From: Prochlorococcus marinus
GTDB lineage: Bacteria; Cyanobacteriota; Cyanobacteriia; PCC-6307; Cyanobiaceae
NCBI RefSeq assembly: GCF_001180265.1
Contig: NZ_CVSW01000073.1
Location: 1 to 64,000, forward strand
Reading direction: 5' to 3'
DNA length: 64,000 nucleotides
Position 1 is the stretch's first letter, and every line of letters starts with the position of its first letter. The notes under the pieces are model-generated. The model saw only the letters and a list, made by a program, of their open reading frames with translations. It was not told the origin of the DNA and made no database searches. The position numbers were made by a program, and so were the translations under genes. This document shows positions 8,579 through 42,909 of the stretch, piece by piece.

Positions 8579-8883
8579 TTTTTTAGCTCCGGTTTCGCTT
8601 AAGTCCCCGTTCCATGGCTTAAGTCGATTTGCGGCTTGCTATGTGCAAGTTGAACGTTTTGGTAGCGGTTGCTACAAATTTATAATAACATCCATTAAAA
8701 TTATTTGTCTAGGTTTTTAATAAATAAACTTAATATATTAATGATAGATTAGGTTTCTGAAAAAAATACTTATCAGAATCTTGGCTTAATTGCTTACAGG
8801 TTACATTTTGTTCGTTTTTGAGAAGTATTTTTTATTTAATGAACTTTTAAATGTAAAATTCTTAAGATTATAAAATTTGTTTT
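8579..8883. promoter_or_regulatory. divergent promoter region with duplicated GCTTAAGTC words
   Basis: This 305-base gap separates the leftward DUF4278 gene from the rightward gene at 8884. GCTTAAGTC occurs at 8597-8605 and 8617-8625 (20-bp period) within the DUF4278 leader. A GTAGC/GCTAC inverted repeat lies near 8663-8676, next to a TATAA-like box near 8680 on the leftward strand. The right half is plain AT-rich DNA expected to hold the promoter of the 8884 gene. Confidence 0.4.
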
Positions 8884-32044: not shown

Positions 32045-33235
32045 ATGAGTTTAAAAAAAAATATAAACGATATTAAAAAAAATTATTCCCTAGGAATAAT
32101 TGGAGGTGGTCAACTGGCTTTGATGTTAACGGAGGCAGCAAAAAAAAGAGATTTAGAAGTGTGTGTGCAAACAAAATCTTGTGATGATCCTGCTGGTTCA
32201 AAAGCAGACCATGTGATAGAAGCTGATCCTTTAAAGATAAGAGGTAATAAATCATTAATTAATGAGTGTGAAAAAATAATTTTTGAAAATGAATGGATAA
32301 AAATTGATAAATTAAATTTAATTGACAATAAAGATATTTTTGTTCCAAGCCTTAATGCAATTAAGCCATTAGTAGATAGGTTTTCTCAAAAAAAATTAAT
32401 AGACAAAATGAATATTCCCTGCCCAAAATGGATAAGTATTGAAGATTTTAAAAATCTCTCGGATGAGGAAATCAATAATTGGACTTTTCCTCTAATGGCA
32501 AAATCAAATAAAGGTGGATATGACGGCAAAGGGAACAGAAAAATAAAGACAAAAGAAGATTTAGATTCTTTTTTAACAGAGAATAGTTCTAATGAATGGT
32601 TAATAGAAGAATGGATAGAGTATGAAAAAGAACTGGCTCTTGTTGGCTCGAGAGATAGGACCGGTAAGATAAGATTCTTTCCAATAGTTGAGACGTTCCA
32701 ATCAAACCACGTTTGTGATTGGGTTCTTGCACCTGGAACAAATAAATATGATTTGAACTTATTTGCAATAAATATTTTCTCTTCAATAGTAAATGAACTT
32801 AATTACGTAGGAGTTTTAGCTATTGAATTCTTCTATGGAGATAATGGTCTTTTAATTAATGAAATAGCTCCTAGAACACATAACTCAGCTCATTTCTCTA
32901 TTGAAGCTTGCACTTCAAGTCAGTTTGATCAATATGTTTGTATTTCTTCTGGGATAATGCCACCTGAAATTAAAATGAACTGTGAAGGTGCAATTATGAT
33001 AAATTTACTGGGTTTAAAAAAGAATTTCCCAATCTCAATGGAAACCAGAATTAAAATGTTATCTGAAATTGAGGGTTCTAATATTCATTGTTATGGCAAA
33101 TCTCGCGAAATTCTGGGAAGAAAAATGGCTCACATCACATTTTTATTAAATGGTAAAACGCATTCGGAAAGATATGATGAAGCTCAAATTTTATTAACTA
33201 TGGTAAGAGACATTTGGCCATCTCCAAATGCATAA
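32045..33235 (+). CDS. purK: N5-carboxyaminoimidazole ribonucleotide synthase
   Basis: An ATP-grasp enzyme of purine synthesis that carboxylates AIR with bicarbonate. 396 residues, starting LGIIGGGQLALMLTEAAKKR, with KSNKGGYDGKGNRKI near 155 and INEIAPRTHNSAHFSIEAC near 270-288, typical PurK motifs. The 6S RNA gene follows directly, as in other cyanobacteria, and may be partly read through from purK. Confidence 0.94.
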   Translation: MSLKKNINDIKKNYSLGIIGGGQLALMLTEAAKKRDLEVCVQTKSCDDPAGSKADHVIEADPLKIRGNKSLINECEKIIFENEWIKIDKLNLIDNKDIFVPSLNAIKPLVDRFSQKKLIDKMNIPCPKWISIEDFKNLSDEEINNWTFPLMAKSNKGGYDGKGNRKIKTKEDLDSFLTENSSNEWLIEEWIEYEKELALVGSRDRTGKIRFFPIVETFQSNHVCDWVLAPGTNKYDLNLFAINIFSSIVNELNYVGVLAIEFFYGDNGLLINEIAPRTHNSAHFSIEACTSSQFDQYVCISSGIMPPEIKMNCEGAIMINLLGLKKNFPISMETRIKMLSEIEGSNIHCYGKSREILGRKMAHITFLLNGKTHSERYDEAQILLTMVRDIWPSPNA

Positions 33236-33254
33236 AAAAATAAGTTAGAGTTAG

Positions 33255-33445
33255 ATTACTGGATCTTTGGTTAAGTTCTTCTTTATGTGCTCTGATCTGA
33301 CTCTCTTTCGACATGAGGAAACTGTCGTGATGCGGTAGTAAACCGATCTTGTAATCGGAAACGAAAGCCCACTTTGAATCCTCTTCTGGCATTCCCAGGT
33401 CGATGCAGCAGAGAACTGACGGGGATCCGGTGTTACCTATCAAAA
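33255..33445 (+). ncRNA. ssaA: 6S RNA (SsaA/Yfr7)
   Basis: Located downstream of purK on the same strand, the known position of cyanobacterial 6S RNA. No ORF covers it convincingly. The ends pair: ACTGGATC (33258-33265) with GATCCGGT (33424-33431), as expected for the closing stem. Internal pairs such as CGAC/GTCG near 33309-33333 and CCGAT/ATCGG near 33342-33359 give the long irregular rod around a central bubble. The GC content exceeds the surroundings, typical of a structured RNA. Ends are approximate. 6S RNA binds RNA polymerase holoenzyme and mimics an open promoter. Confidence 0.8.
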
Positions 33446-36818: not shown

Positions 36819-36957
36819 GGCCTAGGTTTAACTTGTTGAATAGGAGGGATCCAATGATTGACAGTCCACCAGAGGAGTTAAATTAAAAAATTTAAATCTA
36901 GATAAAACTAATGCTAAATCTGGAATGAATCTTCTATTTGAGATTCATTCCTTTTTA
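36819..36957 (+). ncRNA. candidate short transcript with strong SD, 10-codon ORF and intrinsic terminator
   Basis: A TATAAG box (36810-36815) precedes AGGAGGG (36842-36848), an ATG at 36854 with ideal spacing and a 10-codon ORF (MIDSPPEELN, 36854-36886). A perfect 11-bp terminator hairpin follows, GGAATGAATCT/AGATTCATTCC (36922-36932/36941-36951), with a T run. This is a complete small transcription unit of about 135 bases. It could be a microprotein mRNA, a regulatory RNA, or both. Ends are estimates. Confidence 0.5.
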
Positions 36958-39825: not shown

Positions 39826-40494
39826 ATGATGCCGACTTATCTAATTACAGGATCAAATAGAGGTATTGGATTAGAATTATGTAGGCAAATTCATAAGAGG
39901 GGAGATAATGTAATTGCTACGTGTAGGAAAGCTTCAAAAGAACTTAGAGATTTAGGAGTGAGAGTTGAAGAGAATGTAGAAATTTCTTCTGATGAGTCGA
40001 TAACAAATTTGTGTAAACAATTATCCGGAGTTAATTTAGATTGCTTAATTCATAATGCAGGAATTTATGAATTTAATTCTTTCGAAAACTTAGATAAAAA
40101 AAGTATTTTGCGTCAATTTGAAGTTAATGCATTGAGCTCAATATGTATGACTCAATCACTTAAACACCTTTTAAAAAGATTTTCTAAAGTTGCTTTTATC
40201 ACAAGCAGAATGGGATCTATTGAAGATAATACATCTGGAAGTTCTTATGGTTACAGGATGTCTAAGGTAGCCTTATCCATGGCAGCAAAATCACTTTCAA
40301 TAGATTTATCAAATGAAGATATTTATGTAGCTATCTTGCATCCTGGGTTAGTGAGTACAAGAATGACTGGATTTACAAGAAATGGAATTAGTCCCGAAGA
40401 ATCAGCAAATGGCCTTTTAAAACGTATAGATTCTTTAAATAAAAATAACTCGGGTACGTTTTGGCATGCCAATGGAGAAGTTTTGCCTTGGTAA
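39826..40494 (+). CDS. short-chain dehydrogenase/reductase
   Basis: 222 residues, SDR fold: cofactor motif TGSNRGIGLELC near 7-18, HNAGIYEF (NNAG equivalent) near 75-82, catalytic Ser in AFITSRMGSIE and YxxxK as YRMSK near 143-147. The cofactor loop TCRK suggests NADP(H). It resembles the C-factor/carbonyl-reductase-like SDRs. It is the only ordinary enzyme-sized gene in this nursery of small ORFs. Substrate unknown. Start ATG 39826; the next codon but one is also ATG-compatible. Confidence 0.85.
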   Translation: MMPTYLITGSNRGIGLELCRQIHKRGDNVIATCRKASKELRDLGVRVEENVEISSDESITNLCKQLSGVNLDCLIHNAGIYEFNSFENLDKKSILRQFEVNALSSICMTQSLKHLLKRFSKVAFITSRMGSIEDNTSGSSYGYRMSKVALSMAAKSLSIDLSNEDIYVAILHPGLVSTRMTGFTRNGISPEESANGLLKRIDSLNKNNSGTFWHANGEVLPW

Positions 40495-40611
40495 AATCTA
40501 TAATTTTATTCTTAAGACATTTATATCGTTAAGTTGTTAAAAAACTTTTAAATTTTTAACGAATTTCTTTCCTTGTTTAATTCTTTTAGTTATCTTTAGT
40601 AAAACATTAGT

Positions 40612-40749
40612 AAAGGAGGTGATTCATTGTCGTATCTACCGAAAAATACGGTTATAAAAGGGACCGTGAATCCAGTATCTTCATCACATTCATCGGTCTC
40701 TTTTTCTTTGATTAAGAAAAAAGGTTTTATAATCAACAGATTTATATAA
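40612..40749 (+). CDS. short ORF (40 codons) behind a 12-base perfect anti-SD complement
   Basis: AAAGGAGGTGAT (40612-40623) is the full complement of the canonical 16S rRNA 3' end, followed with ideal spacing by TTG 40627. The ORF would start MSYLPKNTVIKGTVNP and run to TAA 40747. A strong terminator hairpin lies inside it: AGGGACCGTGAAT (40659-40671) with ATTCATCGGTCTCT (40688-40701), then TTTTT. Most transcripts should therefore end before the ORF does, leaving a non-stop message or a regulatory RNA. The coding status is uncertain; the SD and hairpin are certain. Confidence 0.5.
   Translation, partial: KGGDSLSYLPKNTVIKGTVNPVSSSHSSVSFSLIKKKGFIINRFI
40659..40705 (+). terminator. strong intrinsic terminator inside the 40-codon ORF
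   Basis: A 13-bp stem with one bulged T: AGGGACCG-TGAAT pairs with ATTCA-T-CGGTCTCT, loop 40672-40687, then five or more T. Much stronger than neighbouring hairpins. Confidence 0.85.
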
Positions 40750-40767
40750 ATCAGTTACTTAATAATT

Positions 40768-40805
40768 AAAAGCTCTGCATTTCATGAAGTTGCAGAGCTT
40801 TTTTT
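40768..40805. terminator. bidirectional intrinsic terminator
   Basis: AAAAGCTCTGCA (40768-40779) pairs perfectly with TGCAGAGCTTTT (40791-40802), loop of 11, followed by T run. Serves the rightward short transcript and the leftward four-gene operon ending at 40836. Confidence 0.9.
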
Positions 40806-40835
40806 ATGACTTTAAATAGTCTTTCAAAATTTACT

Positions 40836-42437: not shown

Positions 42438-42909
42438 AGGATTTGAACTTAGAATTATTCAAAAGGCAAATGCAATCATAGTGATCCCCAAAAAAAAATG
42501 TGGATAGTCTTATTTTTAAAGAAGATAATATTTTATTTTGCACATAGAAATTCAAATTTAATCAACACATTGTGGAAAACCCTGTTGAAAAACGCTTAAA
42601 AAGTGGATAACTCTTCGGGAGCATTCCCAAAACAAGCTTTTCTGGAAAATTTTTTAAGTATTAATACTTCATCAAAAAAAAAAAAATATAGTTTAAAAAG
42701 TATCATAATCTGTTGTTATAACTGTGGGATCATTACTTTTAAAAAAAGATAAAATATCTATACCAGAAGTTCATGTTGATAAAAAATCAAAAAGGTTTTT
42801 TCTTAATTATGTATCAAATTGAAAATTAAAGTGAAGAAAAATCAATCTAAACTTGAAATTTTTAATTTTTGTCATAGCTGATTAAAAATTGTTTAATTCG
42901 GTTTTCTCT
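42438..42909. other. gene-poor gap with three DnaA-box-like words
   Basis: TGTGGATAG (42499-42507), TGTGGAAAA (42571-42579, the complement of TTTTCCACA) and AGTGGATAA (42602-42610, complement TTATCCACT) all resemble DnaA boxes in one orientation. A CTTCGGGAGCATTCCC stretch (42613-42628) may fold, and a poly-A run lies near 42674-42688. A GTG-started 32-codon frame at 42724-42822 is weak. I see no definite gene here. Confidence 0.4.

Follow-up and report, generated by a model that had tools for sequence, protein, structure and literature searches.

A conserved candidate micro-gene of Prochlorococcus with an extended Shine-Dalgarno sequence and apparent constraint on both RNA and peptide

Introduction

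Whether a short stretch of DNA with an exceptionally strong predicted ribosome-binding site should be read as the message of a small protein, as an RNA acting on ribosomes, as both, or as an accident of sequence is the question raised by a locus at 40612–40749 of the Prochlorococcus marinus DNA analyzed here (contig NZ_CVSW01000073.1, positions 1–64,000; this whole stretch of 64,000 nt is hereafter called the window). The portions of PMC5607370 available to us describe Prochlorococcus as probably not reliant on Shine-Dalgarno (SD) sites. The low SD use among the ORFs of the window agrees with that account, as GGAG, GAGG or AGGA precedes the first ATG with the usual spacing in only 1 of 48 ORFs, the starts of which were assigned mechanically and not taken from annotation. 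What makes the locus of interest is that a near-maximal SD is kept almost unchanged across Prochlorococcus lineages, though the genus reportedly does not rely on such sites (PMC5607370). If the RNA binds the 30S subunit as predicted, it would offer a natural test case for a full-length SD in vivo and for how a streamlined genome might sense translation capacity by RNA. Judged from sequence comparison, the element is a conserved micro-gene with apparent constraint on both its RNA and its peptide, and it is unmodelled in the libraries that were searched.

Pairing with the 16S rRNA Tail

The 12-mer AAAGGAGGTGAT, which the preliminary description had presented as a perfect 12-base complement of the 16S rRNA 3′ tail, is present at 40612–40623. 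All 12 bases fit the textbook tail; however, the 3′ end of this organism's own 16S rRNA, as read from its genome, is GGATCACCTCCTAACA, so that the first two As of AAAGGAGGTGAT are left unpaired and Watson-Crick pairing is confined to the 10 bases AGGAGGTGAT (40614–40623). Counting one G-U pair, the super-Shine-Dalgarno AGGAGGTGATTCA (40614–40626, plus strand) has the potential to form a 13-bp helix with the tail, and the predicted helix reaches up to the TTG start codon of the ORF described below. The single-stranded tail of 16S rRNA is thereby complementary to the SD over nearly its whole length. Over-long SD pairing can slow the clearance of ribosomes, and slow clearance of this kind would suit a weak TTG start.

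The predicted pairing energy of this SD with the 16S tail is −21.9 kcal/mol, whereas the values at the first ATGs of the 48 window ORFs have a best of −9.8 kcal/mol and a median of −2.95; this bears out the earlier statement that the site lies far beyond normal SD strength. When alternative starts of the window ORFs were considered, one long ORF attained −19.2 kcal/mol. A scan of the window in 22-base stretches taken every 4 bases on both strands ranked the element first for 16S-tail pairing and an element at 36.8 kb second (−21.1 kcal/mol).

The 10-mer AGGAGGTGAT occurs in the genome at five sites, one of which is the 16S antisense, as against four for the reversed control; this count is not above chance, and the argument consequently rests on conservation and placement. 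The count is the one observation in keeping with the suggestion that a random SD-like 12-mer happens to lie next to a random hairpin. That suggestion is refuted by the conservation reported below, namely 26 near-invariant nucleotides and the retention of both ORF and hairpin across 14 genera, and we give it practically no credence.

Distribution and the Near-Invariant Start Region

By BLASTN, 72 of the 101 genomes of the same genus contain the element; among the 29 with a completeness of 90% or more, 26 do. Allowing up to three mismatches, a search with the pattern GGAGGTGATYCATTGTCGYATCTACC found it in 120 of 400 genomes of the family, representing 15 of 59 genera with one copy each, and the reversed-pattern control gave zero matches in every genome listed. 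The match in genome G269 (locus L169), the sole match of its genus, looks like chance and was set aside; 14 genera remain, that is, 13 further genera of the family besides the element's own. A protein profile gave matches in 60 of the 68 genomes of the same genus and in 120 of all 400, from 16 of 59 genera; three of these genera have the peptide tail alone. Among 194 genomes sampled across the class, the 11 matches all fell within the same family and none outside it, and a scan of public genomes confirmed at least 111 relatives, the 80 named loci that were kept being either Prochlorococcus or uncultured Synechococcaceae. Viral contigs yielded no relative to either the profile or the exact pattern, nor did phage records yield a match to one 33-residue form of the protein; a phage origin was dropped on the strength of these empty searches.

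In what follows, the forms of the element's own genus are called high-light and those of the other genera low-light or simply other-genera forms, labels that we presume from a few strains. The conservation set comprised 170 distinct elements, 122 of the high-light form and 48 from other genera, with L169 dropped. DNA similarity and peptide patterns were used to collect the high-light loci, and the DNA pattern and the profile to collect the others; samples collected in this way are not random, and the DNA pattern favors conserved starts. Read with that bias in mind, the 26-nt start region GGAGGTGATYCATTGTCGYATCTACC (40615–40640, plus strand), delimited by the pattern search and base tallies, hardly varies across the 170 elements. 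Positions 40615–40626 are near-invariant in the base tallies, and the start codon is TTG in 170 of 170. Position 40624 differs between the high-light form and the others as T or C, both of which pair with the G read in this organism's own 16S rRNA. The preliminary description had made its interpretation depend on conservation of the SD and of the hairpin across relatives, and both were found to be conserved.

Open Reading Frame and Peptide Tail

The 40-codon ORF MSYLPKNTVIKGTVNPVSSSHSSVSFSLIKKKGFIINRFI, identified from the ORF list, occupies 40627–40749 (plus strand), with its TTG located 7 nt behind GGAGG and its stop codon TAA at 40747–40749; the N-terminus reads MSYLPK. The frame is open in the relatives, where its length ranges from 26 to 40 codons. 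An alternative reading from an ATT one base earlier was discarded by eye from the alignments, as it gave ORFs of varying length and no fixed end.

The distribution of variable sites among 102 distinct high-light ORFs differs along the frame. In codons 28–40, third positions account for 11 of the 15 variable sites, and the C-terminal nonapeptide KGFIINRFI (codons at 40720–40746, plus strand), which is common to otherwise different small ORFs, varies only silently. Codons 12–27 carry no codon signal (third positions account for 8 of 31 variable sites), and codons 2–6 have two variable sites altogether. The tail NRFI, or a close version of it, terminates 166 of the 170 ORFs. In the other genera, mostly 33-residue forms of the type MS[YH]LPIGQESM...LKGFIINRFI were found and the tail is looser, 3 of 41 sequences having L or Y in place of F27 and 9 of 41 another residue in place of I28. 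The earlier proposal of a stalled, non-stop message does not hold as the general case, since a peptide tail showing mainly silent variation follows the hairpin in 166 of the 170 elements. No match in Pfam, NCBIfam or PHROGs was obtained for three members at E-values up to 1, and a profile search found no relative among solved structures.

At L168, L182, L208, and L209, each in a different genus, a T6–T8 tract directly follows the hairpin and the tail is missing. Two of these genera also hold tail-bearing members, which points to probable loss of the tail on more than one occasion. These four loci resemble the design that the preliminary description had put forward, an RNA ending at the hairpin; with the tail present in 166 of 170 elements, that design does not describe the set as a whole. 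In other genera, loci L081–L084 have a different N-terminus (MLxxL...) with an identical KGFIINRFI end, and without the SD motif. Genome G126 contains both an ORF of this MLxxL type with the tail and a tail-less element.

KGFIINRFI immediately precedes the stop codon, which places the conserved residues next to a possible arrest point. The nonapeptide could be imagined to stall the ribosome and thereby control the decay of, or read-through on, its own message, and a constraint concentrated at the C-terminus beside the stop, a variable middle and an identical tail on different small ORFs would all be in accord with this. Known arrest peptides, however, usually act on a downstream gene, and the window has no same-strand gene directly downstream, nor is there a constant neighbor across genera; a C-terminal binding motif accounts for the pattern equally well. 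We therefore regard ribosome arrest as very improbable.

The conservation of the first codons is of another kind. In the high-light form, codons 2 and 4 are fixed as TCG and CTA, and codon 5 is CCG in 120 of 121 sequences (15 of 41 in the other genera); these codons are rare, making up 3.4%, 10.3%, and 4.4%, respectively, of the codons used for their amino acids in the window. The idea that they form a local hairpin masking the SD was not supported: the native codons took rank 49 of 72 for the high-light form, and rank 33 of 72 for two others. No second site for the fixed stretch TTGTCGYATCTACC / TTGTCGTATCTACCG was found in the genome on either strand with two mismatches allowed, and a run of 12 between TTGTCGTATCTACCG and another region of 16S rRNA, which includes three G-U pairs, was taken as chance. 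The near-invariance of TTGTCGYATCTACC is thus not explained by local SD masking or by a second genomic site.

Predicted Hairpins within the ORF

The preliminary description had placed a strong terminator inside the ORF. A hairpin followed by a T-rich stretch does lie within the frame (40657–40703, plus strand; codons 11–26), but the reading frame passes through it without interruption as far as the TAA. Its loop of approximately 16 nt is long for a terminator. After the stem, the 122 high-light sequences read TTTTTCTTT in 93 cases and TTATTCTTT in 19; among the 48 other-genera sequences, a T6–T8 tract follows the hairpin in 4, and most of the loci read there have no tract. A terminator scan, which allows loops of 3–8 nt only, reported neither this hairpin nor the structure at 40770–40807 described below. 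A short hairpin ACCG/CGGT is predicted in addition at 40638–40652 (plus strand; codons 4–9), the pairs of which are invariant in a 34-sequence high-light alignment and hence provide no covariation for or against it.

All 78 distinct high-light sequences in the set form the 10 core pairs of the in-ORF hairpin; L031, with a 3-nt deletion, was left out of it. Six of these pairs vary, one being seen as G-C, G-U, and A-U, and the changes GGG/GAG, GCC/ACC, and TCG/TTG within the hairpin alter the encoded amino acids (G12E, A13T, and S23L). In the 34-sequence alignment, three predicted helices taken jointly had 97.6% of their cells paired (95.7% for the in-ORF hairpin) versus 40.6–58.5% when the helices were slid. 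The shuffle control was exceeded on no measure for this high-light structure, and covariation proper is accordingly weak for its hairpin.

Stability relative to synonymous recodings was also evaluated on 18 mutually related sequences (7 high-light and 11 others) hand-picked from the 170. The native hairpin region was more stable than usage-weighted recodings at the 0.05 level in 17 of the 18, the exception being L198, and more stable than GC-matched recodings in 16 of the 18, with L199 and L207 as exceptions.

The other genera possess a different hairpin, CAGGAG/CTCCTG, in a comparable place, and across the 48 sequences 83.0% of its cells are paired; none of 500 shuffles scored as high, and the counts of changes on both sides were not unusual. 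Consensus folding of the same sequences favors, over this hairpin, a pairing of the SD with CTCC together with CCATTG:CAATGG (97.7% of cells paired, without covariation), such that the other-genera set backs a fold in which ORF sequence pairs with the SD and the start codon about as well as it backs the hairpin.

Putative Transcription Unit and Genomic Neighborhood

Inspection of the alignment by eye revealed a −10-like hexamer, TATCTT (TATGTT in other high-light sequences), at 40591–40596 on the plus strand, approximately 18 nt before GGAGG; a consensus scan found no sigma-70 pair on this strand. By analogy with Yfr8, Yfr11, and Yfr16, transcription would start near 40602. The unit would end at a terminator read from the sequence, AAGCTCTGCA ... 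TTGCAGAGCT followed by Ts (40770–40807, plus strand), the stem of which, judged by eye in the high-light alignment, appears to be kept via matching changes on both sides.

The downstream ORFs taken for genes are on the opposite strand, and the upstream SDR ORF ends at 40494. Across genera, no gene was constant in place among the 41 loci compared. With opposite-strand ORFs downstream, a terminator following and flanks that differ between genera, the locus is unlike the leader of a normal gene, an explanation that the preliminary description had held against its own interpretation. An SDR gene or its kin lies within approximately 2 kb, on differing sides, at five high-light loci, in genus g56, and at L170 and L206. 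A linkage of the element to the SDR gene was rejected, as SDR genes are present in 290 of 400 genomes, including element-less genera, and genome G470 has the element without SDR. Eight same-genus genomes that are at least 95% complete (G276, G002, G451, G462, G023, G463, G072, and G471) are without both the element and SDR, a joint absence that possibly reflects the loss of a block in one clade.

Proposed Function

The start region, the hairpin and the tail are constrained in different ways, which suggests, as far as sequence comparison can tell, a message that serves both as RNA and as a template for protein. The comparison of relatives supports the pairing potential, the near-invariant start, the ORF and its tail, and selection on the hairpin. 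On this basis we find it just about probable that the element is a stand-alone, dual-purpose small mRNA of approximately 200 nt, in which a super-SD start is followed by a hairpin within the ORF, and which encodes a small protein whose C-terminus is functional. In this model the element would be transcribed from the putative 5′ end, translated from its TTG, subject to early termination and regulatory in role. A short 5′ leader would present an SD complementary to nearly the whole 16S tail and so capture 30S subunits, and UUG, a weak, conserved codon, would initiate a protein of 33–40 residues in which the C-terminal KGFIINRFI is the likely functional part. The in-ORF hairpin would be kept for RNA structure, and ribosomes trailing RNA polymerase would melt it; when ribosomes are missing, the hairpin would favor early termination or processing and leave an RNA of approximately 100 nt that retains the 30S-docking site. 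The terminator would close the unit.

A simpler reading sees here an ordinary message for a small protein, the translation of which begins at a very strong ribosome-binding site; the hairpin would merely tune stability or the speed of translation, and the RNA would have no separate role. Such a message would have the open ORF, the peptide-level selection on the tail and the stand-alone unit with its own terminator that are seen here. It would not lead one to expect rare codons fixed at positions 2, 4, and 5 of the high-light form (TCG, CTA, and CCG), a hairpin retained despite amino-acid changes, or four loci that retain the start region and hairpin and not the tail, and we consider it rather unlikely.

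Comparison with Known RNAs and Initiation Sites

The element is present in strain MED4 at 661,996 (plus strand), and it is missing from Table 1 of PMC2518516, in which MED4 sRNAs are given. No Rfam match above the cut-off was obtained for the window locus or for nine other-genera loci, one of which is a tail-only ORF, and the element's letter strings were not found in the open-licence literature. The RNAs that it most invites comparison with are Yfr8, Yfr11, and Yfr16 of MED4, seen by Northern blot and 5′ RACE (PMC2518516, Table 1). Like the element, Yfr8 and the Yfr11/Yfr16 family (RF02363) are short, stand-alone, structured RNAs with an SD followed by a small ORF; their published 5′ ends lie 8–9 nt before GGAGG (PMC2518516), and behind GGAGG we read ORFs of 8–13 codons (MIDSPPE...) at all three loci (L302, L304, and L310), that of Yfr16 by eye. 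An SD and a micro-ORF are thus suggested at the 5′ end of three RNAs that were published as non-coding, and Yfr8, Yfr11, and Yfr16 may be micro-mRNAs, a proposal drawn from their sequences.

The best 16S pairing was −19.6 for Yfr8, −15.0 for Yfr11, and −14.5 for Yfr16, where the best site is not the SD, so that only Yfr8 is comparable to the element in this respect. No sequence relation to these RNAs was seen beyond the SD: the ORF of the element has 26–40 codons and encodes an unrelated peptide, starting MSYLPK, and the MIDSPPE micro-ORF of the Yfr11/Yfr16 type is missing behind its SD. Against the curated RF02363 cut-off of 44 bits, MED4 Yfr11 and Yfr16 match at 151.4 and 95.1 bits, and there was no Yfr11 match at 40560–40830 up to E = 1. 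Homologs of Yfr8, Yfr11, and Yfr16 are reported in the available text of PMC2518516 from high-light strains only.

These RNAs bear on a further alternative, in which the element is a regulatory RNA that docks on free 30S subunits and captures or delays them (titration), the peptide being a by-product or an optional addition. Pairing that extends to the start codon, the T and C at 40624 that both pair with a 16S G, a weak TTG start that is never replaced, tail-less forms ending soon after the hairpin with T6–T8, and Yfr8, Yfr11, and Yfr16, RNAs published as non-coding, beginning with GGAGG and ORFs of 8–13 codons would all agree with such a function. It would, however, require RNA levels comparable to those of free 30S, the high-light sequences show clear selection on the peptide tail, and the best 16S-pairing site of Yfr16 is not its SD; we judge titration as the sole function to be distinctly unlikely and retain the dual-purpose message as the preferred reading.

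Initiation sites of a related kind have been described in Staphylococcus aureus, where infC, cvfC1, and ccpN combine an extended SD–anti-SD helix with a conserved non-AUG start, and where one product, CvfC1, is a small protein of 61 residues (available parts of PMC13009471). The element shares with these sites a predicted helix extended towards the start and a conserved non-AUG start codon. It differs from them in its UUG, where the S. aureus sites have AUU or AUA, in its in-ORF hairpin and in forming a stand-alone unit.

Yfr6/glutamine-II is likewise a short RNA of Prochlorococcus, in which a conserved element precedes a peptide of approximately 33 aa, according to the accessible portions of PMC1242208 and PMC2864571. 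It is a riboswitch aptamer (Downstream-peptide) whose sequence is unlike that of the element, and identity with RF01704 was rejected, as the only match of that family in the window lies at 8598–8659, with none at the locus up to E = 1. The dual-function RNAs SgrS/SgrT, RNAIII, and VcdRP, in the accounts available to us, resemble the element in being short RNAs with a small ORF and structured parts; they differ from it in that the ORF of the element spans the structured part and that no base-pairing target is known for the element.

The 36.8-kb Site and Other Strong SD Sites

A similar plan had been noted in the preliminary description for a site near 36819, and this was corroborated by its rank as the second-strongest 16S-tail site of the window. 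At 36835–36955 (plus strand), the site (−21.1 kcal/mol) is followed by a 10-codon ORF, MIDSPPEELN, and then by a terminator-like hairpin; it was matched in 19 of 20 high-light regions that were fetched. Its match to the Yfr11 family is weak (35.1 bits, cut-off 44), from which we take it to be probably a diverged relative of Yfr11/Yfr16.

A survey of strong sites covered 464 kb, consisting of 20 stretches of MED4 (400 kb) and the window; the MED4 copy of the element lies outside the sampled stretches. Sites at −21 kcal/mol or better were limited to the two window elements. At −17.5 kcal/mol or better, 26 sites were recorded: 17 lie within long ORFs, 4 are antisense to such ORFs, and 5 are intergenic, with a start codon behind 4 of the 5 intergenic ones. 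It could be supposed that the element, the 36.8-kb micro-ORF, Yfr8, and perhaps Yfr11 and Yfr16 form a class of super-SD RNAs that dock on free 30S subunits and so gauge or buffer ribosome availability, translation of the ORF deciding the state of the hairpin and hence the choice between a 30S-bound form of approximately 100 nt and a message for the tail peptide. We attach little probability to this idea, and slightly less in view of the 16S pairing of Yfr8, Yfr11, and Yfr16, which is weaker than that of the element. With 17 of the 26 strong sites inside long ORFs, micro-ORFs are not the only setting of strong 16S pairing, and the class is speculative.

Two other strong sites were observed in the course of this survey. 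At L297:8821 (plus strand; MED4 ~1,208,820), an intergenic 16S-tail site of −20.7 kcal/mol is followed by a possible 14-codon ORF. At 32092–32122 of the window (plus strand), an SD-like site of −19.2 kcal/mol lies inside a long ORF and is also present in MED4; it may be compared with the Gly-Gly motifs and internal SD sites that are treated in the available text of PMC5607370. The Rfam matches of the window comprise Yfr17 (42468–42726) and 6S RNA (33253–33437) on the plus strand, and the glutamine-II riboswitch mentioned above, which is encoded on the minus strand.
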